Positions 9,209 through 19,823 of a stretch of DNA of 64,000 nt are shown here, piece by piece; position 1 is the first letter of the stretch; each line of letters begins with the position of its first letter. The DNA comes from Rheinheimera lutimaris. GTDB lineage: Bacteria > Pseudomonadota > Gammaproteobacteria > Enterobacterales > Alteromonadaceae. The position numbers and the translations under genes were made by a program. The notes beneath the pieces were generated by a model. The model searched no databases. It saw only the letters and a program-made list of their open reading frames with translations, and had not been told where the DNA came from. Location of the stretch: contig NZ_JABSOD010000005.1 of NCBI RefSeq assembly GCF_013283795.1, positions 124,001 through 188,000 on the forward strand, written 5' to 3'.

Positions 9209-10021
9209 ATGTACCTGTGTCCGCTGTGCCAAAATCCGCTGGCGCTTAATGATAAACAGTATCAGTGTGCCAATCGTCACAGCTTTGATATTGCCCGCGA
9301 AGGTTATGTTAATTTACTGCCGGTGCAGCAAAAAAACTCTAAAGCCCCTGGCGACAACAAAGAGATGATGTTAGCCAGGCGGGCCTTTTTGCATGCCGGT
9401 TGGTATGCCCCGCTGGCGCAGGCGGTATGTGACACACTAACCCCGCTGGCAGCAAAAAGCATATTAGATACCGGCTGTGGCGAGGGTTATTATACGGCGC
9501 AGGTTAAACAAGCACTGCCGGGCGCGACAGTATATGGCGTTGATATCTCCAAAGCGGCGATTAAGTTTGCCGCCAAAGCCAACAGTGCTATTCAGTTTAG
9601 TGTGGCCAGTGTGTACCAGTTGCCGTTTGCGGCGCAGTCTTTTGACGCCATAGTGCGCATTTATGCGCCGTCTAAACCGGAAGAGCTGCAACGACTGTTA
9701 AAACCCGGCGGCCATTTGGTTACGGTAACGCCCGGCCCACAGCATCTGCTGCAAATAAAACAAGCTGTGTACGACACGGTGCGGCTGCACAGCGACGATG
9801 TGGAAGCCATTAACGGTTTTAGCCACCTGAGCCGGCAACGGCTGCAATATCAGCTGAGTTTCAGCCAACCGGCAGACGTGCTGGCACTGATACAAATGGT
9901 GCCACTGGCGTGGAAATTCAGCGCAGAGCAAAAACAGCAATTTGCCGCCACGCTGCCGCAAATTGATGTCGACTTTCAGCTGGATGTGTACCAAAAAGCA
10001 CCGCTAACAGCCGGGCACTAA
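9209..10021 (+). CDS. rlmA: 23S rRNA (guanine-N1)-methyltransferase RlmA
   Basis: Methylates N1 of G745 (E. coli numbering) in helix 35 of 23S rRNA using S-adenosylmethionine. The 270-residue product has the diagnostic N-terminal zinc finger with Cys4, Cys7, Cys20 and His24 (MYLCPLCQNPL and QCANRHSFD). The segment REGYVNLLPVQQKNSKAPGDNKEM and the SAM-binding motif ILDTGCGEGYYT follow. The start at ATG 9209 has a GGAAG ribosome site and puts the zinc finger at the very N-terminus; an upstream in-frame start would add 14 unconserved residues. It is alone on its strand between yciU and the TonB receptor. Confidence 0.93.
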   Translation: MYLCPLCQNPLALNDKQYQCANRHSFDIAREGYVNLLPVQQKNSKAPGDNKEMMLARRAFLHAGWYAPLAQAVCDTLTPLAAKSILDTGCGEGYYTAQVKQALPGATVYGVDISKAAIKFAAKANSAIQFSVASVYQLPFAAQSFDAIVRIYAPSKPEELQRLLKPGGHLVTVTPGPQHLLQIKQAVYDTVRLHSDDVEAINGFSHLSRQRLQYQLSFSQPADVLALIQMVPLAWKFSAEQKQQFAATLPQIDVDFQLDVYQKAPLTAGH

Positions 10022-10227: not shown

Positions 10228-10273
10228 TATCGTTAACCAACCCCTCCCCTGGCTACACCTTCGCAGGCGAGGC

Positions 10274-10288
10274 GCGCAAAATTTGCGC
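10274..10288. promoter_or_regulatory. 15-base perfect palindrome, possible operator
   Basis: GCGCAAAATTTGCGC is a perfect 7-1-7 inverted repeat about 110 bases upstream of the receptor start. Together with the palindrome at 10209 it suggests regulated expression of the receptor. The regulator is unknown and no regulator gene is adjacent. Confidence 0.35.
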
Positions 10289-10398
10289 ACACTCTTTGCA
10301 TTAATGCTACTGAAGCGCAAAAAATTGTGGCGTTTTCATCTTTCAACAATTTGATATTAATCATTTTTAATTAAAGATTAACGAATATGGGAACACAG

Positions 10399-12966
10399 AT
10401 GAAATATAATAAAAATTCAGTAGCACACTGCATCAAAGTTGCGCTTTTTGGCACAGTCGCAATGGCGATGCTTTCCCAACCGCAAGCGTGGGCAGATGAG
10501 GCGGCGCAAAGCGACGCTGAACCGGTAGAAAAAATTGCGGTAGTTGGTTCCAGGTCTGCACCACGCTCAGTGGGCGAATCTCCGGTACCTATAGACATTA
10601 TCGGCGGTGAAGAGTTTACCAACCAGGGTAACTCCGACATGCTGAATCTGCTGAGCACTATGGTGCCCAGCTTTAATATTAATGCTCAACCTATCAGCGA
10701 CGCCGCAACACTGATCCGCCCGGCCAACCTGCGGGGTTTGGGTCCGGACCAAACACTGGTGCTGGTAAATGGTAAACGCCGCCACCGTGCCGCTGTTATC
10801 GCCTTCTTAGGCGGTGGTATTTCGGACGGAGCCCAGGGACCGGACATTTCCGTGATCCCAGCCATTGCTATTCGCCAGGTCGAAGTGCTGCGCGATGGTG
10901 CTGCAGCACAATATGGCTCGGATGCTATTGCCGGGGTACTGAACTTCCAACTGAAAAACGCCAGTGAAGGCGGCATGCTGGAAGCAAAATGGGGGGAATA
11001 CTACGATGGCGGTGCCAGCGATCAATTTGCCGGTAATATCGGCTTGCCGTTTACTGACAAAGGCTCGGCCAACTTTAGTTTTGAATACCGCACCGCCGAT
11101 GCAACCAGCCGCAGTGTGCAACGGGATGATGCCGCCGGGCTAATTGCCGCCGGTAATACCGCAGTAGCCAACCCCGCGCAAATTTGGGGCTCGCCGCAAA
11201 TTAAAGACGATTTAAAACTGTTTGCCAACTTTGAGCTGGACTTAGGTAACGGCAAAGACGCCTATGCCTTTGGCAACTATGCCAAACGCGAAGTAGAAGG
11301 CGGCTTTTATTACCGCAACCCAACCAACCGCAGCGGTGTATATCAAGGCTCACCGGTTACCGTAGACGATGTAGAATACGATACTGTGCTGGTAGGTGAC
11401 CTGACCCCGGATGATGGTGTCAGTTGCCCGGCACTGCGCCTGGATGAAAATGGTATTCCCATAGCTGCCGATCTGGCCGCCATAACTGCGGATGCAAACT
11501 GTTGGGCTTTTACCGAAATGTTGCCCGGCGGCTTTACCCCACGCTTTGGTGGCACCGTGTATGATGCCTCTATTGCCGGTGGCGTAAAAGGCGAATGGCT
11601 CAACGATATTATGTTTGATATGAGTGCCTCTTATGGTCGCAGTCAGGCAGATTTTTCTATCAGCAACACCATTAACCCGTCGATGGGTCCGGAAACGCCA
11701 ACCTCATTTGATCCCGGCACCTATGTGCAAACCGAAATTGGCCTGAACCTGGATATGTTCCGTGAATTTGACGCCGGCCTGGCTGAACCATTAATACTGG
11801 CCGGTGGTGTGGAGTGGCGCGAAGATATCTTTGAAGTAAAAGCAGGTGATGTGCCGTCTTTTACCGTAGGGCCGCTGGCCAGCCAGGGTTTTGGCATAGG
11901 CTCTAACGGCTTTCCCGGTTTTAAACCGGAAGCCGCCGGTGTTTTTACCCGGCGTAACCTGTCGTTCTACACTGATGCTTCAGCCTGGGTTACCGACGAC
12001 CTGATGTTAAACGGCGCCCTGCGTTATGAGGATTTTACCGATTTCGGTGATACCACGAACTGGAAAGTATCGGCGCTGTATCATCTGACGGACAGTTTTT
12101 CGCTGCGTGCTGCCGCAGGCACCGGTTTTCGGGCACCGACTATCGGCCAGAGCAAAGTGATTAACGTGACTACCGCTTTTGGTCCGAACGGATTGGAAGA
12201 TCAGGCAACCTTGCCGCCGGACAACCCTATTTCGATTCAAAAAGGCGGTAAGCCGTTAAAACCGGAAGAGTCAGAAAACTTCTCCTTCGGTGCGGTAATG
12301 AACCTGGGGACAACGCACGTGTCGCTGGATTACTACAACATTAAAGTAACCGACCGTTTAAGCCAAACCTCGCCGCTGACATTAGAGGAAGAGGATATCG
12401 CTGCCCTGCTGGCTATGGGGGTAAGTGACGCCAGCAGTTATTCCAGTATTTTGTTCTTTACCAATGACTTTGATACCCGCACTCAGGGTATCGATTTGGT
12501 GGTAAGCCAGGATATAGATATAGGCCGCGGCCGCAGCAAACTAAACCTGGTGTTTAACTGGAACGATACCGAAGTTACGCTGGACCCGTTAACCACCAAC
12601 GTCGGCGAAACCAAAGTGCGCCAGTTAGAAGAAAACTTGCCCAACACCCGGGGTAGCTTGTCGTTTAGCCACGAAGAGAACAACTGGCGGGCCCTGGCCC
12701 GGCTTAACTACTATGGCTCGTTCTGGGAAGCGCATTTGGATGACGGCAGCCTGCCTATTGACGAAGGTTCTGCTGTAACAGTTGACCTGGAACTGGGTTA
12801 TAAGCTTACTGCAGAGCTTGAGCTGGTGTTGGGTGCACAAAACGCCTTTAACAAGTATCCGGACGAAAACCCCTATGGCGGCATAGCCGGGGCAAAATAC
12901 CCGACGACTACGCCTTACGGCTTCAACGGCGGTATGTACTACGTGCGGGCTGTATACCAGTTCTGA
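10399..12966 (+). CDS. TonB-dependent outer-membrane receptor
   Basis: An 855-residue outer-membrane beta-barrel with a plug domain, expected to import a ligand by TonB energy. The signal peptide ends QAWA-DE around residue 32. A TonB box-like EKIAVVGSR follows at 44-52. The plug has RPANLRGLGPDQTLVLVNGKR and QVEVLRDGAAAQYGSDAIAGVLNFQL. The protein ends in the barrel signal ...YYVRAVYQF with a C-terminal Phe. ATG 10399 has a GGGAAC ribosome site; an ATG at 10387 would add four residues. The ligand is unknown; the amine oxidase cluster just downstream suggests an amine or amino-acid derivative. A strong terminator separates the receptor from those genes. Confidence 0.92.
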   Translation: MKYNKNSVAHCIKVALFGTVAMAMLSQPQAWADEAAQSDAEPVEKIAVVGSRSAPRSVGESPVPIDIIGGEEFTNQGNSDMLNLLSTMVPSFNINAQPISDAATLIRPANLRGLGPDQTLVLVNGKRRHRAAVIAFLGGGISDGAQGPDISVIPAIAIRQVEVLRDGAAAQYGSDAIAGVLNFQLKNASEGGMLEAKWGEYYDGGASDQFAGNIGLPFTDKGSANFSFEYRTADATSRSVQRDDAAGLIAAGNTAVANPAQIWGSPQIKDDLKLFANFELDLGNGKDAYAFGNYAKREVEGGFYYRNPTNRSGVYQGSPVTVDDVEYDTVLVGDLTPDDGVSCPALRLDENGIPIAADLAAITADANCWAFTEMLPGGFTPRFGGTVYDASIAGGVKGEWLNDIMFDMSASYGRSQADFSISNTINPSMGPETPTSFDPGTYVQTEIGLNLDMFREFDAGLAEPLILAGGVEWREDIFEVKAGDVPSFTVGPLASQGFGIGSNGFPGFKPEAAGVFTRRNLSFYTDASAWVTDDLMLNGALRYEDFTDFGDTTNWKVSALYHLTDSFSLRAAAGTGFRAPTIGQSKVINVTTAFGPNGLEDQATLPPDNPISIQKGGKPLKPEESENFSFGAVMNLGTTHVSLDYYNIKVTDRLSQTSPLTLEEEDIAALLAMGVSDASSYSSILFFTNDFDTRTQGIDLVVSQDIDIGRGRSKLNLVFNWNDTEVTLDPLTTNVGETKVRQLEENLPNTRGSLSFSHEENNWRALARLNYYGSFWEAHLDDGSLPIDEGSAVTVDLELGYKLTAELELVLGAQNAFNKYPDENPYGGIAGAKYPTTTPYGFNGGMYYVRAVYQF

Positions 12967-12987
12967 CGTACCGGAAAACCGGTTCGT

Positions 12988-13020
12988 GCACTAAGCTGAC
13001 ATCAGCTTAGTGCCGTTTTT
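12988..13020 (+). terminator. Intrinsic terminator after the TonB receptor
   Basis: GCACTAAGCTGA, CA, TCAGCTTAGTGC: a perfect 12-base stem followed by CGTTTTT. A smaller hairpin (ACCGG AAAA CCGGT) sits just before it at 12970-12983. It should end most receptor transcripts 20 bases before the amine oxidase start at 13040. Confidence 0.85.
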
Positions 13021-13039
13021 ACAGCGGAATTCGTTCTTT

Positions 13040-14644
13040 ATGAATAACTACCTTAAAGCCCCCCTAACCAGGCGCCAATGCCTGAATCTGCTGGCCAAAG
13101 CCGGTGGCAGCTCAGCGGTATTGCACGCCGCCGGCTTATTTGGTTTGACGACAACGCCACTGAAAGCCAGCCCGGTGACACTTAAGCCTTTAGCAGGACA
13201 GCAGCGCAAAATATTAATTTTAGGCGCAGGCATCAGCGGCCTGACCGCGGCTTATGAGTTAGAGCGCGCCGGTTACAGCTGCAGGATTATTGAAGCTTCA
13301 CACCGCGTTGGCGGCAGAGTAATGACACTGCGCCACGGCGATTTTATTGACGAGCTTGGTGCACCGCAAATTTGCCCGTTTGACGCCGCCCCCAACCTGT
13401 ATTTTAACGCCGGTGCAGCCCGTATTCCGGCACACCACAGTGCTATTTTGCATTATTGCCGCACTCTCGGTGTCGATTTGCAGTTGTTCAGTAATCACAA
13501 CAAAAATTGCTACACCCAGGATGATGCCGTATTCGGCGGCAAACCGCTGCGCATTCGTGAGTACGAAGCTGATGTGCGCGGCTTTATCGGTGAATTGCTG
13601 GCAAAATCTGCCGGCGCTGCTGCAACAGCAGAATTACCTTTTAATGCAGAGGACATGGAAAAGTTTATCGACTTTGCCAAAGCCTACGGCGATTTAACAG
13701 CTGATCTGCGTTATCGTGGCTCAGAACGAGCCGGTTATGCCAGCGGCGGAATTACCGCACCGGGCGTCATAAAACCAACCAGGCCACTGGCAGATTTACT
13801 GCGCAGTAATTTTGCCGCCGGTGCTATGCACTTTGCCGAAATAGCCGACCAGGCTCCGGCATTAATGACTCCCGCCGGCGGTATGGACAACATAGTTCAG
13901 GCCTTTTTACGCCAGCTGACAACTGATATTCAGCTTAACTGTCAGGTGACTAATATTCAGTTGCTACCGCAAGGTGTGGCAGTGACTTATTTGCGGCAAG
14001 GTGAACACCACACAGAGCAAGCCGACTACTGCCTGAATTGCATACCTGCGCAATTGGTTAGTGGTATTGAGAGTAATTTACCGGCTACTTATCTTGCCGT
14101 GATGCGCCGGCTGGGCCGTGGCAAACTAACCAAAATAGGCTTGCAGGCAAAGCAGCGCTTTTGGGAGCAGGAAGATATTTACAGCGGCATCAGCTGGACT
14201 AACCAGGACATTACGCAAATTTGGTACCCGCACCATGATGCGTTTAAGGCCAAAGGCATTTTGCTTGGCGCCTACAGCTGGGTACCGGAAATCTCGGACC
14301 GCTTTGCTGCGATGACACACCCGCAGCGGATAGCGGCAGCCATTGCTCAGGGGACTAAAGTACACGCCAACTACGCGCAGTATATTGAGAGCGGCGTAAG
14401 TGTTTGTTGGCAACGGATGAACCATATGCTTGGCTGCGGTGCAGTATGGTCAGAAGAGTTACAAAAAACCGGCTTTGCGCAACTGCAGGCGCCGGCCGGA
14501 AACCACTACTTAATTGGCGATCAACTCAGTATGCATCCTGGCTGGCAGGAAGGTGCAGTGCGCTCAGCGTGGCATGCATTAGCAGACATTGAACGCCGCG
14601 AAGCGACACGCGGCAAAAAACACAGCACAGGAGTTATGGCATGA
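13040..14644 (+). CDS. Tat-exported FAD-dependent amine oxidase/dehydrogenase
   Basis: A 534-residue flavoprotein of the monoamine/L-amino-acid oxidase family. The N-terminus has a twin-arginine signal (LTRRQCLNLL, Arg11-Arg12, then a hydrophobic stretch), so it should be exported folded with FAD. The FAD site follows: ILGAGISGLTAAYEL at about 60-74, then EASHRVGGRV. A C-terminal flavin-binding segment reads YLIGDQLSMHPGWQEGAVRSAW. ATG 13040 is chosen because an upstream GTG at 13010 lies inside the terminator stem. The stop overlaps the cytochrome c start (ATGA). The family oxidises amines to imines. The adjacent cytochrome suggests a dehydrogenase like NicA2, which passes electrons to a cytochrome c rather than oxygen. 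Substrate unknown. Confidence 0.85.
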   Translation: MNNYLKAPLTRRQCLNLLAKAGGSSAVLHAAGLFGLTTTPLKASPVTLKPLAGQQRKILILGAGISGLTAAYELERAGYSCRIIEASHRVGGRVMTLRHGDFIDELGAPQICPFDAAPNLYFNAGAARIPAHHSAILHYCRTLGVDLQLFSNHNKNCYTQDDAVFGGKPLRIREYEADVRGFIGELLAKSAGAAATAELPFNAEDMEKFIDFAKAYGDLTADLRYRGSERAGYASGGITAPGVIKPTRPLADLLRSNFAAGAMHFAEIADQAPALMTPAGGMDNIVQAFLRQLTTDIQLNCQVTNIQLLPQGVAVTYLRQGEHHTEQADYCLNCIPAQLVSGIESNLPATYLAVMRRLGRGKLTKIGLQAKQRFWEQEDIYSGISWTNQDITQIWYPHHDAFKAKGILLGAYSWVPEISDRFAAMTHPQRIAAAIAQGTKVHANYAQYIESGVSVCWQRMNHMLGCGAVWSEELQKTGFAQLQAPAGNHYLIGDQLSMHPGWQEGAVRSAWHALADIERREATRGKKHSTGVMA

Positions 14645-15267
14645 ACAAACTGCTTATAGTGCTGCTGTCGGTGGCGTTTTTACCGAGTAATGCCGCCGTG
14701 GCCGACTCGCAGCAACCAAACGCCCGCTATTGTTTGGTTTGTCACGGCTCTGCCGCACAGGGCAATGCTGCCATACAAGCACCAAACCTGAGCATACTGC
14801 CGGATTGGTATTTGCAGCAGCAGTTTGTCGCTTTTCGCAACAATTGGCGCGGTGGGGCGCAGGATGATACGCACGGCAAAGAAATGCAAGCTGTTGCCGG
14901 CATCATGAGCGATACCGAAATACATCAGGCCATTGCTTTTATCCGCAGTATTAAGCCGGTGGCAAAGCCAACACCAGGCAGCATAGAACATGATGTGCAG
15001 CACGGCCGGCTGTTGTACCAGACTTGCCGGGCCTGCCACGGGAGCAATGGCGAAGGTAACGCCCAACTTAAGGCACCGCCGCTGGCTGGTCAGCAACCCG
15101 GGTATCTGGCGCAGCAACTTATTGCTTTCAGAAATGGTTGGCGCGGTAACCAGGCAGACGATACCTACGGCCGCACTATGCGCCCGTTTGCGCAAAGCCT
15201 GCCGGACAAGCAGGCTATTGATGATGTAGTAGCCTATATTGACACTTTAGCTTCTTCCTCAAAATAA
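14641..15267 (+). CDS. Periplasmic diheme cytochrome c (c4-like, internally duplicated)
   Basis: A 208-residue protein with a Sec signal peptide (MNKLLIVLLSVAFLPSNAAVA) and two heme sites, CLVCH at 31-35 and CRACH at 129-133. The halves are clearly repeats: YLQQQFVAFRNNWRG in the first matches YLAQQLIAFRNGWRG in the second, and both are followed by a DD(T)xGxxM segment holding a probable Met ligand. It starts at the amine oxidase stop (4-base overlap), so tight co-expression is expected. Its likely job is to accept electrons from that flavoenzyme and pass them to a terminal oxidase. Heme attachment needs the Ccm system encoded at 25907-32900. Confidence 0.9.
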   Translation: MNKLLIVLLSVAFLPSNAAVADSQQPNARYCLVCHGSAAQGNAAIQAPNLSILPDWYLQQQFVAFRNNWRGGAQDDTHGKEMQAVAGIMSDTEIHQAIAFIRSIKPVAKPTPGSIEHDVQHGRLLYQTCRACHGSNGEGNAQLKAPPLAGQQPGYLAQQLIAFRNGWRGNQADDTYGRTMRPFAQSLPDKQAIDDVVAYIDTLASSSK

Positions 15268-15280
15268 TAAGGATACATAA

Positions 15281-15772
15281 ATGAAACTGAGTTTTTGCAC
15301 TGCAGCGGTACTGGTGTTCAGCAGTTATAGCCAGGCTGCGGATATAACCCGCTACCCTTTGCCGAATAACAGCAGCTTTCCGATAGCCGCAGCAGTAGAA
15401 GTGCCTGCGGCTAAAGCTGTGATCTATGAAAGCGGCAAGGTACCGTCGCCATTGGATAGCAGCGCAGAAAAAAACTCTGCCGCTTACTGGGGCAATACCG
15501 AACAACAAACGGTAAATGTATTGACACAGATTGAAGCCAGCCTGAAAAGCAAACAGCTGAGCATGGCAGATGTGGTAAAAATGACGGTATTTCTGGTGGG
15601 CGATGAAGCGCTGGACGGTAAGATGGATTTTGCCGGTTTTATGCGTGGTTATACGCAGTTTTTCGGTACCAAACAACAACCCAATTTGCCGGCCCGTTCG
15701 GCTTTTCAAATAGCCGGTTTAGTAGCAGAGGGCATGTTAGTAGAAATAGAGGTAATTGCTGTGCGTCCATAA
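15281..15772 (+). CDS. Secreted RidA-family (YjgF/YER057c) protein
   Basis: The 163-residue product carries a signal peptide (cleavage near SQA-ADI at 19), unusual for a RidA-like protein since classical RidA is cytosolic. The core shows VYESGKVPSPLD, QTVNVLTQIEASLKSKQLSMADVVKMTVFLVG and PARSAFQIAGLVAEGMLVEIEVIAV. The Arg in PARSA corresponds to the active-site arginine of imine-hydrolysing RidA. It lies 13 bases after the cytochrome c gene. RidA proteins hydrolyse reactive imines and enamines, so a periplasmic version beside an exported amine oxidase makes sense. The function here is inferred. Confidence 0.85.
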   Translation: MKLSFCTAAVLVFSSYSQAADITRYPLPNNSSFPIAAAVEVPAAKAVIYESGKVPSPLDSSAEKNSAAYWGNTEQQTVNVLTQIEASLKSKQLSMADVVKMTVFLVGDEALDGKMDFAGFMRGYTQFFGTKQQPNLPARSAFQIAGLVAEGMLVEIEVIAVRP

Positions 15773-15844: not shown

Positions 15845-17032
15845 TTAATCCTGCACGGTAGAAAAATCAGTCTCGCTGGCATCGGCCGTTTGTTGCTGGC
15901 GGATAGCGGTAAGCATACCGGACCAAAAATAGGTGCCGAGCTCGTTAATCATGTTCGATTCAGCGTTAATCAACATCACTAACCCCAACTGATGCTCGCG
16001 CGAATAGGCAATTTCGGCGCGATAGCCTTTTACCCAACCACCGTGATAAATCAGCTCATCCTGGCCAAACTGGTAAACCCGCCAGCCCAGAGCATAGTGC
16101 GCATCGGTTAAATAGCGGCGCCATTCTTTACGGCGCAGATCACGGCGGGTTTTCACCCGTTTGCCGGTAAGCTGCTGCAGTAATTCATCGGGGAATACCG
16201 CCTGATTGTGCCCCAGTTGTGCTATCAGCCAGTAGCCTAAATCTATGGCGCTGGCATTAATGCCGGCAGCCGGACTAAAGCGATAGTAGCTCTCAGCCAC
16301 CTCAACGTCATGCCACTTGCCACGCGCTCTGACATGCGGCATGGCACGGTTTTCAGTGCTGAAAAAACCATCCAACCCTACCGATGCGGTGGGCAGTTGT
16401 AACGGGGTAAAAATACGCTCCTGCATTAATTCGGCGTAGCTTTTACCGGTAGACTGTTCAATAACCGGCTCAATTAAACTGAACAACACATTTTGATAGC
16501 CATAGCACTGACCTGGCGGGCACAGCGGATCAATTTTACTAAATTGCGGCAGTATGCTCTCCAGCGGTAAGTTGGCTTCAATCAGATTGTCATAAGCATT
16601 GGGCATAACACCGGTACTTTGCGACAATAAATGCGCCAGTTTTAACTGCTGATTGTAGCGCTTAGTTTTGAACGAAAAGCCCGGCAGGTAATCCACCAGC
16701 TTATCGTCCCAACTGAAATGCCCCTCTGCCGCCAAAATGCCGGCAAGGCCGCCGGCAAAGGTTTTTGACACTGAAGCAATACGAAAAACAGTATAAGGGT
16801 CTACCGGCTCAATACTGCCTTGCTGGCGTACACCAAATCCGGCGGTAGCAATAATTCTGTTGCCCTGCACTATGGCATAAGCGCCACCCGGAATATCATG
16901 CTGCGTTAACTGACCGGCAAAATATTGATCAAAGTCGGCAATCAGCGGCGCCACATAGCTATTGCTGACATGGGTATCAGCAACAACAGAGACACTGCAG
17001 CAACACAAAATCGTTAAGAAAAACTGTTTCAC
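15845..17032 (-). CDS. Exported serine hydrolase, beta-lactamase class C/PBP4* family
   Basis: A 395-residue protein with a signal peptide (MKQFFLTILCCCSVSVVADT). It has the family active site: the nucleophile Ser87 and Lys90 in SVSK, a YxN motif in CYGYQNVLFS, and HGG in LIYHGGWVKGYRA in place of KTG. This fits the Pfam beta-lactamase/esterase/D-aminopeptidase group. It does not indicate antibiotic resistance, since most members act on peptides or esters. The start is a GTG at 17032; no ATG lies near the signal peptide. It sits 85 bases downstream of the subtilase gene on the same strand and converges with the RidA-like gene. Confidence 0.85.
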   Translation of the reverse strand: MKQFFLTILCCCSVSVVADTHVSNSYVAPLIADFDQYFAGQLTQHDIPGGAYAIVQGNRIIATAGFGVRQQGSIEPVDPYTVFRIASVSKTFAGGLAGILAAEGHFSWDDKLVDYLPGFSFKTKRYNQQLKLAHLLSQSTGVMPNAYDNLIEANLPLESILPQFSKIDPLCPPGQCYGYQNVLFSLIEPVIEQSTGKSYAELMQERIFTPLQLPTASVGLDGFFSTENRAMPHVRARGKWHDVEVAESYYRFSPAAGINASAIDLGYWLIAQLGHNQAVFPDELLQQLTGKRVKTRRDLRRKEWRRYLTDAHYALGWRVYQFGQDELIYHGGWVKGYRAEIAYSREHQLGLVMLINAESNMINELGTYFWSGMLTAIRQQQTADASETDFSTVQD

Positions 17033-17086: not shown

Positions 17087-17139
17087 CCGGCCAACACAGC
17101 CGGGCATTGTAGTGGCTTTAGCCCGGCTGTGTTGGCCGG
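17087..17139. repeat. Perfect 19-base inverted repeat at the 3' end of the subtilase gene
   Basis: CCGGCCAACACAGCCGGGC (17087-17105) and its exact reverse complement (17121-17139) flank a 15-base spacer. The right arm encodes the last residues (PTQPG region) of the subtilase and the spacer begins with its TAA stop. Neither strand has a following T run, so it is not a classic intrinsic terminator. Confidence 0.8.
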
Positions 17140-19823
17140 CGCCAGCATAACAAGCCAAGGGCGGCTAACCACCAGCCACTGCTGCTGCCACCACCGCTAC
17201 CGCCATTGTTAGCGCCATTATTGCTTCCCCCCCCGTTGCCGCCACCGCTATTTGACGGGTTTACGGTTATGGCAACATTACTGCTACTGGCGGTAATGCC
17301 ATTATCAGCGGTAAAGCTAAAACGTAAAATAGTTACACTGCTGACTGTCGGTGCGGTAAAGCTGCTGCCAAGTGTCGTGGTACTGCTAAGCGTAACGGCA
17401 GGGCCATCTGTTTGTTGCCAGTTGTACGTTAACGGATTAGCGTCAGCATCGGTTGCTGAGGCTTGCAATTGCACCACTGCGCCACTCGCCACCGTCTGCG
17501 CCGCGCCGGCAGATACCAGCGGTGCTGTATTATCACAATCGGCGTTAACTTCCAGCTCTTGCAGCCCGGCTAACCAATCATTAAATTGCTGGTTAATCGG
17601 GGCGCAAAGCTCTGTGCCGTCAAACCGCAAGGAGAACAGCTGAGATAAATTGGTAAGGGTTTGCGGCAGGGTGCCGGAAAAACCGTTGTTTGCCAGCCAT
17701 AACATGCCAAGCTGCGACAATTGTCCCAAACCGGACGGCACAGCGCCGGACAGCTGGTTATCTTCGACAAACAAACGCTGCAAATTGCTGAGGTTACTAA
17801 GCGTAGCCGGTAATTGACCACTAAAGCGGTTAAATGATATGTCCAGCCAAACCAACGCCGACAGGTTACCTAAGGCTGACGGTAAAGTACCTTCCAATGC
17901 ATTACCCCACAACTCCAGACGCTGCAACTTGCTCAGTTGCAGTACTGCCTGCGGGAAGGTGCCGGTAAGGCTGTTATAACTCAGATTAAGACGTTGCAGT
18001 TCTGTCAGCTGAGCAAAACCGGCAGCAATACTACCGAATAAGCGATTGTCATCCAGTTTAATACCGGTAACACGACCACCGGTACAAGTAATACCGTACC
18101 AGCCGCAGGGTAAGTTATTGGTTAACCAGTTATCTTGCTGCTGCCAGCTCTGGCCCTGAGTATCGTAATACAATTGCACCAGGGCATTACACTCAGCCAG
18201 CGGAATTTCGCTGACATTATTATCGCTGCAGTAGTTGTCATTGCGGGGCTGAATTTGTACTGCGCCATCAGGAAAGTTGAGCGTAGTAGCGTTACCGTCA
18301 AACACCCAGTTACCGCTATAGATACCATCACCGGCATGGGTATCAGGCGCTACGCCATTGTCGGCAATAGCTACCGGTGTATTGGCAACACCGGCGGTAA
18401 CCGTGGCAGCTACACTGTTGCCGTCACAATCTATGCTTAACAATTCAATGCCAATACTGCTGTTTGGCGCAACGGACAGGGAAGCCGCGGCCGGCAACAT
18501 CCGCCGTTGCAGTTGCTGATTAACACAATTTAATGCGCCGCTTTGGCCAGGGCCACTGGCTAATAAAAAGTTACCGCTGGCCGTTTGTGCAGCCAGCAAG
18601 GCGTCTGTTGCCGGCACCCCGGAGGCCAAAATGCGAGCCCGGAGTTGCTGCATAGTCAGCGCCGGCTCTGCCGCTTTTAATAAAGCTGCCACACCTGTCA
18701 CCATTGGCGATGCCATCGAGGTGCCGGACGCCAGAACAAAGTCATCATCTAATGTAGACGATAAAATTGCTACACCAGGCGCAGAAATATCCACCCAGTC
18801 GCGGCCATAGTTGGAAAAGTCGGCTCTTACGCCCTGTTCATCATGCGCTGCCACGCTGATTACATTGGGTAAATCGAAGGCGGCCGGGTAAAACTTGGCT
18901 TGTGAATTGCTGTTACCTGCGCTGGCAACAAATAAAATGCCGGCGGCGTTGTGCTCAGCAATGGCGTTATACAAAGCCTGGGACTGAGAACCACTACCCC
19001 AGGAGTTATTGGTTGCGACAATATTGATGCCATGGTTTAGTTTTAAATCCAGCACGTAATCCAGACATTTTATCGCGTCGCTGACAAAGCCGGAGCCGTT
19101 AATGTCCATAAAGCGGCACGCCAACAGCTTTAACTGCCAATTAACTCCGGTAACGCCCTTATTGTTATTACCGGCCGCTGCAATAATGCCGGCAACTATA
19201 GTACCGTGGCCGTCATCATCCATCGGGTCGACGCTGTCATCTGCCGGATTAATACCACGAATATCATCAATATAACCGTTGCCGTCATTATCAATGCCAT
19301 CAGCTGCAGTTTCGCCGGGGTTCTGCCAGATATTATCCACCAGGTCACCATGGGTGTAATCAATGCCGGTATCAATTACCGCCACTACCAGCTGATTATC
19401 ACCGGTAGTTTGATCCCAGGCATCCACCGCATTAATGCCGCTGCCGGCTTTTAAATGCCATTGCTCTGCAAAGCCGGGATCATTTGGCTCTGCTGTTTTA
19501 TATACGCGCTCATCGCGCTCTACCGCGGCGATACCCGGCATGGCACTGTACTGCGCAATAGCGGCATCTACATCGCTACCGGCTGACAATGCCACCACCG
19601 CCAGTTGTGGTAAATGGTTAAAATACTGCAGCCTGGCCTGTTTGCTGTTAGCCAATCCTGAACGCTGTGCCGGCGATAAATCAACACTACCGGCGCTTAC
19701 CTGCGCATCGAAAGTAAGGATAAGGCGCTGCTCTGTCGTCTGCAACTGAGTCGCCTGTAACTGAAAGCAGCCGGCAGCTAACAACACAACAGCTGACAGC
19801 TTACGAACAAAAGATCTGTACAT
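17118..19823 (-). CDS. Secreted subtilisin-like protease with LRRs, Ig/PKD-like domain and GlyGly-CTERM
   Basis: A 901-residue multidomain protein. It has a signal peptide (1-24) and an inhibitor_I9-like prodomain (about 30-108). The S8 catalytic domain has Asp151 (VIDTGIDYTHGD), His206 (DDDGHGT), Asn304 (ASAGNSN) and Ser369 (SGTSMASPMVTG). A Ca-binding-like loop (DGIDNDGNGYIDD) sits near 176-187. Plant-type leucine-rich repeats span about 570-750 (for example LQRLNLSYNSLTGTFP), then a PKD/cadherin-like domain. A Gly/Ser/Asn linker precedes the GlyGly-CTERM tail (GGGSSSGWWLAALGLLCWRR), the sorting signal cut by rhombosortase in type II secreting gammaproteobacteria. A good GGGGA ribosome site precedes ATG 19823. 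The substrate is unknown; extracellular protein degradation is likely. Confidence 0.9.
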   Translation of the reverse strand: MYRSFVRKLSAVVLLAAGCFQLQATQLQTTEQRLILTFDAQVSAGSVDLSPAQRSGLANSKQARLQYFNHLPQLAVVALSAGSDVDAAIAQYSAMPGIAAVERDERVYKTAEPNDPGFAEQWHLKAGSGINAVDAWDQTTGDNQLVVAVIDTGIDYTHGDLVDNIWQNPGETAADGIDNDGNGYIDDIRGINPADDSVDPMDDDGHGTIVAGIIAAAGNNNKGVTGVNWQLKLLACRFMDINGSGFVSDAIKCLDYVLDLKLNHGINIVATNNSWGSGSQSQALYNAIAEHNAAGILFVASAGNSNSQAKFYPAAFDLPNVISVAAHDEQGVRADFSNYGRDWVDISAPGVAILSSTLDDDFVLASGTSMASPMVTGVAALLKAAEPALTMQQLRARILASGVPATDALLAAQTASGNFLLASGPGQSGALNCVNQQLQRRMLPAAASLSVAPNSSIGIELLSIDCDGNSVAATVTAGVANTPVAIADNGVAPDTHAGDGIYSGNWVFDGNATTLNFPDGAVQIQPRNDNYCSDNNVSEIPLAECNALVQLYYDTQGQSWQQQDNWLTNNLPCGWYGITCTGGRVTGIKLDDNRLFGSIAAGFAQLTELQRLNLSYNSLTGTFPQAVLQLSKLQRLELWGNALEGTLPSALGNLSALVWLDISFNRFSGQLPATLSNLSNLQRLFVEDNQLSGAVPSGLGQLSQLGMLWLANNGFSGTLPQTLTNLSQLFSLRFDGTELCAPINQQFNDWLAGLQELEVNADCDNTAPLVSAGAAQTVASGAVVQLQASATDADANPLTYNWQQTDGPAVTLSSTTTLGSSFTAPTVSSVTILRFSFTADNGITASSSNVAITVNPSNSGGGNGGGSNNGANNGGSGGGSSSGWWLAALGLLCWRRPTQPG

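Follow-up and report, generated by a model that had tools for sequence, protein, structure and literature searches.

We analysed a 64,000-nucleotide stretch of the Rheinheimera lutimaris genome (contig NZ_JABSOD010000005.1, positions 124,001 to 188,000; hereafter, the window) and found in it a cassette of four genes, encoding a TonB-dependent receptor, a flavoprotein of the L-amino acid oxidase (LAAO) family, a diheme cytochrome c and a Rid3-like protein. With a probability of roughly 0.72, we read the cassette as a periplasmic L-amino acid:cytochrome c dehydrogenase system equipped with its own imine hydrolase. The grounds for this reading come from sequence: the protein families, the export-like signals, the catalytic residues, the conserved linkage and the inheritance of the genes as a block. 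The electron acceptor, the amino acid used and the ligand of the receptor are what we infer.

In the proposed mechanism, the flavoprotein, exported by the twin-arginine translocation (Tat) route, would take the alpha-carbon hydride from an L-amino acid in the periplasm, leaving an imino acid and FADH2 (reduced flavin adenine dinucleotide, FAD). The co-encoded diheme cytochrome c would be the main reoxidant of FADH2 and would hand the electrons on to the respiratory chain; because reoxidation would run mainly through the cytochrome, little peroxide would be formed. In the same compartment, the exported Rid3-type protein would hydrolyse the imino acid to a keto acid plus ammonium, and the linked TonB receptor would let in the substrate or another needed ligand. 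The features of the cassette are as follows, in window coordinates.

10399-12966, + strand: TonB-dependent receptor of 855 amino acids, cassette member (Pfam TonB barrel and Plug)
12988-13013, + strand: terminator-like hairpin of 11 pairs followed by CGTTTTT, between the receptor and flavoprotein genes
13040-14644, + strand: Tat-type LAAO-family flavoprotein (Pfam Amino_oxidase PF01593)
14641-15267, + strand: diheme cytochrome c with an export-like signal and a c4-like fold (Pfam Cytochrom_C)
15281-15772, + strand: Rid3-like predicted imine/enamine hydrolase with an export-like signal (Pfam Ribonuc_L-PSP PF01042)

Gene order and predicted proteins

The LAAO, cytochrome c and Rid genes are adjacent on one strand, in the order of the Gluconacetobacter-type lao-cccA-ridA cluster. 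The flavoprotein and cytochrome genes share 4 bases (ATGA at 14641-14644), and the Rid gene starts 13 bases past the cytochrome stop. A first-pass annotation of the window, which had proposed a periplasmic amine-oxidation module here, reported the same four genes, overlap and gap, together with a Tat motif on the flavoprotein, a Sec-like signal and two CxxCH sites on the cytochrome and a signal peptide on the Rid protein, all of which we confirmed; it mentioned neither the published lao-cccA-ridA cluster nor the hairpin at 12988-13013. This hairpin has the longest stem among 16 terminator-like sites in the region (8.2 +/- 3.2 in shuffles); its inverted-repeat arms are kept in four aligned relatives, and the T-run in locus L002 only. 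Because the hairpin and CGTTTTT stand between the receptor and the flavoprotein, the receptor may be on a separate transcript. Alternative starts are an in-frame ATG at 10387 for the receptor and, possibly, a GTG at 13010 for the flavoprotein.

The N-terminus of the flavoprotein carries the twin-arginine motif TRRQCLNLL (signal assigned by eye), and its best solved sequence relative is the LAAO of Rhodococcus opacus (2jae, E 3.6e-77). An AlphaFold2 model (mean predicted local distance difference test score, pLDDT, of 77; 10-row alignment) matched 2jae with template-modelling (TM) scores of 0.81/0.90 and a root-mean-square deviation of 2.7, followed by snake-venom LAAOs, L-glutamate oxidases and L-lysine oxidases. 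The protein has the features of the GG-motif LAAO family, namely RVGGRVMT (RxGGRxxS/T), the dinucleotide-binding LGAGISG and the LAAO fold. Ten aligned rows, the window included and with identities down to 35%, all retain Arg128, Lys365 and Tyr412, and Arg128 and Tyr412 pair in the alignment with residues of 2jae that we take to be the carboxylate-binding clamp Arg84/Tyr371 of the Rhodococcus enzyme. Because of these sequence and fold matches and the retention of Arg128 and Tyr412, the substrate most likely belongs to the L-alpha-amino acids rather than the simple amines. The NicA2-like amine oxidase suggested by the first-pass annotation was rejected, since LAAOs are the best matches in both sequence and fold; the 60 sequence and 50 fold matches listed include none with the name of a nicotine oxidoreductase, and 8i6i is labelled just "Amine oxidase". 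The Pseudoalteromonas B3 LAAO was also considered as a characterised relative and dropped, as its reported identity of ~80% to L-aspartate oxidases places it outside the family of the flavoprotein.

The cytochrome has a Sec-like signal (by eye) and two CxxCH sites (CLVCH and CRACH), and both sites, together with Met82 and Met180, are invariant in 12 aligned rows. Its model (pLDDT 85) matched cytochrome c4 (1h1o, TM 0.67/0.80) and TsdBA (5lo9), a thiosulfate dehydrogenase fusion; weaker matches were to the diheme subunit of flavocytochrome c (1fcd, 3vrd). The protein thus appears to be of the c4 type, with two predicted class I c domains in a c4 fold, and conservation suggests a ligand role for Met82 and Met180. 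Its two hemes could accept both electrons of one FADH2.

A Tat motif on the flavoprotein beside a gene for an exported-type cytochrome c (signals by eye) is the gene context of cytochrome c-using flavin amine dehydrogenases. In 2025, Tat flavin amine oxidoreductases (FAOs) encoded beside a cytochrome were reported to be mostly cytochrome-using dehydrogenases (PMC12224317; papers are cited throughout from excerpts of their text). All nine newly tested pairs of a Tat FAO and a monoheme cytochrome reacted, eight strongly preferring the cytochrome over O2 and that of B. anthina being mixed, and the authors called a Tat signal and an adjacent cytochrome gene good predictors (PMC12224317). We therefore predict dehydrogenase kinetics for the flavoprotein; the gene context and the kinetics of these other pairs favour the cytochrome as the likely acceptor, as first proposed.

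The Rid protein has a Sec-like N-terminal signal (by eye), and the solved chains closest to it are PFL1385 and PSPTO3006 (structures 9bkc and 9bka). Rid3 proteins are defined by a conserved catalytic Arg and Glu and by Ile in place of Tyr17 of RidA (PMC4433059). The window protein keeps Arg139 and Glu155 and has Ile35 at the Tyr17 position, as judged by its place in the motif; among 61 distinct LAAO-linked Rids, Arg and Glu are each present in 61/61 and Ile in 60/61. PFL_1385 and PSPTO_3006 were assigned to Rid3 and hydrolyse LAAO-made imines (PMC5619798), and the imine deaminase residues are kept here. Given these residues and active homologues, the window protein is likely an imine hydrolase, in line with the first-pass proposal. 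Unlike the two solved proteins, for which the excerpted text mentions no genomic LAAO partner (PMC5619798), it is tied to an exported LAAO. Clustering of Rid3 genes with FAD amine oxidases was noted in 2015 (PMC4433059); what we observe is sharper, a near-obligate pairing of Rid3-like proteins with export-type LAAOs.

An export-like N-terminus, defined as an N-terminal extension with an 11-residue stretch of mean hydropathy >=1.60 (a crude score, with no calibrated control), is present in 59/61 linked Rids. Together with the periplasmic LAAO and RidA known from Chlamydomonas, this count speaks against the first-pass view that a secreted RidA partner is unusual; in this family it is the rule. 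The R. lutimaris genome has three other Rid genes, one of which (L145), whose frame was read, has no export-like N-terminus by eye. The two exceptions among the linked Rids, of 140 amino acids, lack the extension (L140:982-1401 and L141:1028-1447, both on the - strand). These signal-less Rid3 proteins adjoin LAAO genes whose products retain RR at the N-terminus, which presents either a compartment mismatch or a secondarily cytosolic pair; the L140 Rid is a close homologue of PSPTO3006.

Conserved linkage and inheritance as a block

To place the cassette among related loci, we compared the best 80 of at least 574 confirmed named loci, plus loci from genome searches. An LAAO tree of 118 distinct rows, in which identical LAAO cores were entered once and 18 loci with short, weak FAO-family matches (L012-L029) were left out, contained two well-supported clades with the LAAO gene beside a cytochrome gene. 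Clade A, to which the window belongs, has 26 rows, mostly from Rheinheimera and Alteromonadales, with a diheme cytochrome; clade B has 33 rows, mostly from Proteobacteria including Gluconacetobacter, with a monoheme cytochrome. A cytochrome gene adjoins the LAAO gene in 25/26 rows of clade A (in 25/26 as a c4-like diheme partner), in 32/33 of clade B and in all three near-B rows (L138, L139 and L144), compared with 0/56 of the others. A single origin of A, B and the three near-B rows was not rejected (approximately unbiased test, p-AU 0.184, for groups named after the tree was seen). The GG motif is present in 26/26 clade A and 25/33 clade B rows, and the LAAO of the clade A locus L118 also has a Tat motif (SRRECLF). 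Fusions of LAAO and cytochrome were sought, and CxxCH occurred in 0/118 LAAO frames of the tree.

A same-strand Rid lies near the LAAO gene in 25/26 rows of clade A, at least 23/33 of clade B and 17/59 of the others; Rid and receptor counts for clade B are lower bounds, as many flanks span 1.5 kilobases (kb). In 398 genomes, searched at E <=1e-60 for LAAO and E <=1e-25 for Rid, 27 had the LAAO and 25 the Rid: 24 had both, one the Rid only (G710, a partial match), three the LAAO only (G486, G545 and G722) and 370 neither (Fisher p 3.7e-34, relatedness ignored). The LAAO and Rid samples were treated as one, as their handles and denominators agree. A same-strand LAAO gene stands no more than 1 kb away from 22 of the 26 Rid places, and no more than 5 kb away from 25.

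A receptor gene is adjacent to the core in 25/26 clade A loci, on the same strand in 23 and on the opposite strand in two (L009 and L043). It stands upstream of the core in the window's group of eight, L039-L042, L010 and L045, and downstream of Rid in L011, L044, L046-L051 and L120; L045 has a receptor on both sides, and in L043 and L044 the receptor gene is split into two open reading frames (ORFs). Linked receptors of Rheinheimera and Alteromonadaceae share ~35% identity, and the window receptor is 50-55% identical to a second receptor that occurs in each of 31 genus genomes. Because between-group identity is lower than identity to this genus-wide receptor, recruitment of a receptor may have happened repeatedly, and if so, this would argue for a functional tie to the core. 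Among solved structures, the window receptor best matches siderophore receptors, with the matches lying mainly in its plug end; it may act as a substrate importer. Nothing around the core receptor paralogue (L149, L151) hinted at a ligand when inspected by eye. A Pfam LysR-type regulator is divergent from the lao operon in three Alteromonadales loci (L046:5627-6625, L152:5728-6723 and L154:8532-9545), and the interval from rlmA to the receptor gene of the Rheinheimera cassette holds none; these regulators are a possible lead to the inducing ligand.

Within the genus, the cassette is present or absent as a unit between two flanking genes, both outside the module.

9209-10021, + strand: rlmA, left flank (NCBIfam NF008300, above cut-off)
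15845-17032, - strand: beta-lactamase-family gene, right flank (Pfam PF00144)

The receptor-FAO-cytochrome-Rid block, 5.8 kb long, occupies this site in 8/31 genomes, where the gap between the flanks is 5.8-7.5 kb; receptor orthologues of >=91% identity occur in exactly those 8/31 genomes that have the LAAO at the site. In the 23 genomes without the cassette there, the flanks are close together in 21 (<200 nucleotides in 17 and 1.5-3.6 kb in 4) and apart in 2, as measured between match ends (9/23 cassette-free sites were read); the beta-lactamase-family gene itself was found in 31/31. When the products of three flanking genes (POT, RlmA and beta-lactamase-family) from eight carriers and eight non-carriers were placed in a tree, the carriers fell into two groups, the window with G018 and the other six, whose nearest neighbour is the non-carrier G030. 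The genus has therefore seen at least two events, each a gain or a loss of the entire block. G020, a non-carrier at the site, has elsewhere an LAAO module of 56% identity that comes with a receptor of its own. Loci L039-L042 (R. faecalis group) have the same gene order and none of the window's flanking genes in the sequence covered, and so carry the cassette at a different genomic place. Since the block comes and goes within the genus and LAAO and Rid co-occur across the sampled genomes, the four-gene association is not due to chance.

These patterns speak for the single module described in the first-pass annotation, whose proposed check on the linkage gave 25/26 each for cytochrome, Rid and receptor in clade A. 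Its interpretation is supported as regards the module, the export-like signals, the cytochrome as likely acceptor and the Rid protein as likely imine hydrolase, and is not supported as regards a NicA2-like enzyme and the rarity of a secreted Rid.

Further observations concern the site and its surroundings. Recent foreign origin was considered and left no compositional sign (GC content of the four genes 0.48-0.54, window 0.51). The gap in G018 additionally holds an ORF of 483 amino acids, which has a homologue in three other genomes, where it lies at the site without the cassette. ORFs of 474-486 amino acids, 71-86% identical, adjoin the beta-lactamase-family gene at L157:3957-5405, L165:4996-6417, L166:6203-7636 and L168:4922-6379, and among these L157 carries the cassette. 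In G016, the beta-lactamase-family gene is in two ORFs (L169:10269-11486), likely a decayed copy. A palindrome, GCGCAAAATTTGCGC, lies at 10270-10310, 5' of the receptor; in the alignment it is near-complete in L035, with just the TTTGCGC half in L036-L038. At 17118-19823 (- strand) is a gene for a secreted protease of the subtilisin type; it has leucine-rich repeats, and its C-terminal tail, rich in glycine and with Trp/Arg, resembles by eye a GlyGly-CTERM sorting signal. A homologue follows the beta-lactamase-family gene in all eight cassette loci and in 4/9 cassette-free loci read.

Alternative explanations

Several points weigh against a periplasmic dehydrogenase system. No biochemistry or enzyme assay for clade A was found in the literature, and published clade 1 FAOs react modestly with their diheme c4 partners in solution (290-2700 per M per s; PMC12224317). 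A near-flavin lysine tied to O2 reactivity is probably present (K365, equated by position), although dehydrogenases too carry such a lysine (PMC12224317). Clade A is not uniform: L043 has no adjacent cytochrome, the L041 contig ends 719 nucleotides past the LAAO gene, before any Rid, and L118/L153 has no receptor (16 kb read at L153). Export of the Rid protein is deduced from a simple hydropathy score rather than a trained predictor. As for the receptor, it is parted from the flavoprotein by a terminator-like hairpin, its ~35% identity between groups does not point to a single common ligand, and, to our knowledge, uptake of free amino acids does not normally depend on a TonB receptor.

We assign a rather low, though appreciable, probability to a functional unit made up of FAO, cytochrome and Rid only, with the receptor a neighbour serving another purpose. 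Such an arrangement would account for the hairpin, for the varying position and orientation of the receptor, for the minority of clade B loci that have one within 3 kb (many such flanks being 1.5 kb) and for L153, without one in the 16 kb read. It sits poorly with the presence of a receptor gene next to the core, on one side or the other, in 25/26 clade A loci, and with the gain or loss of receptor and core together at least twice in the genus.

We consider it improbable that the flavoprotein is a true peroxide-forming LAAO with an antimicrobial or signalling role and with the diheme cytochrome serving as a minor acceptor or as a peroxide scavenger. In favour, 2jae, the closest relative with a solved structure, carries the name of an oxidase, the conserved lysine would fit the O2-linked position, and other marine LAAOs make antimicrobial peroxide (PMC6316408). 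Against this, cytochrome linkage is near-universal in clades A and B, compared with none of the 56 rows beyond these and the three near-B rows, and an adjacent cytochrome is a published predictor of dehydrogenase activity (PMC12224317).

Very unlikely, in our assessment, is a role in iron uptake, in which keto acid products would chelate iron, as proposed for Proteus amino acid deaminases, and the receptor would retrieve the ferric complex: the receptor does adjoin an exported amino acid-deaminating enzyme, siderophore receptors are its best solved matches and keto acids are described as siderophores for membrane deaminases (PMC5651824), yet those matches mostly cover the plug end and no Fur-box-like site stood out 5' of the receptor in the window and nine loci. 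In that scan, a simple 19-mer match, 0.17 to 1.0 of 300 mononucleotide shuffles scored as well; seven Alteromonadaceae loci scored without shuffles reached at best 10-13 of 19.

A bolder form of the L-amino acid:cytochrome c dehydrogenase reading, which we hold tentatively and at somewhat less than even odds, is a transplantable four-gene cassette that would couple outer-membrane import to the extracytoplasmic respiratory oxidation of an amino-acid-like compound, with a diheme partner taking both FADH2 electrons, an obligate exported Rid3 and a Rid3 subfamily whose main role would be imine hydrolysis for exported LAAOs.

Relation to known systems

The core of the cassette has a published precedent. 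An LAAO-cytochrome c-Rid cluster, lao-cccA-ridA, was described in 2016 in Gluconacetobacter diazotrophicus PAL5 (GDI2456-2454) and linked to tryptophan conversion by the indole-3-pyruvate route, with the LAAO proposed to be periplasmic and the cytochrome and Rid proposed as its helpers (PMC5053998). Two lao insertion mutants made no auxin and had 95% less indolic compounds; the insertions lowered lao, cccA and ridA transcripts 7-18 fold, so the mutants do not tell the roles of the three genes apart. The same paper cites mutants in cytochrome c maturation as making ~5% of the auxin (PMC5053998). Three congeneric loci (L085, L087 and L091), on which our comparison rests in place of PAL5 itself, share the LAAO-cytochrome-Rid order with the window. 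They differ from it in their monoheme cytochrome (139-165 amino acids), in their LAAO, which is ~38% identical and falls in a different clade, and in having no receptor match within 3 kb.

Other systems share parts of the arrangement. The NicA2/Pnao dehydrogenases likewise combine a Tat flavoenzyme with an adjacent Sec-exported cytochrome c, and their clade 1 has diheme c4-type partners (PMC12224317). That family was found with a NicA2 query, whereas the window flavoprotein best matches LAAOs, and neither "L-amino acid" nor "Rid" occurs in the main text of that study (PMC12224317). Chlamydomonas LAO1/LAO2 also pairs an extracytoplasmic LAAO with a clustered Rid gene; unlike the system proposed here, LAO1 makes peroxide, and the excerpted text mentions no cytochrome partner (PMC10805672). 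The membrane-bound L-amino acid deaminases of Proteus resemble it in their Tat-targeted amino acid oxidation, which is thought to feed the respiratory chain (PMC5651824), but none of these deaminases appears by name in the 60 PDB sequence matches listed for the flavoprotein. Among the matches listed from open-licence PMC articles, no paper on a TonB-linked or diheme form of the LAAO system was found.

The core (2016), cytochrome use in the superfamily (2025) and the pairing of a periplasmic LAAO with Rid (Chlamydomonas) were thus already known; what is new here is that the linked TonB receptor and the c4-like diheme partner make a variant of the published three-gene core. If our reading is correct, the LAAO branch would join the flavin amine "oxidases" beside a cytochrome that were found in 2025 to be dehydrogenases, and the enzymes now annotated as peroxide-forming LAAOs would be given a prediction open to test. 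Rid3, for which a 2015 paper described the substrates in vivo as unknown (PMC4433059), would gain a physiological partner, and metabolite-damage control would have a place in the periplasm.

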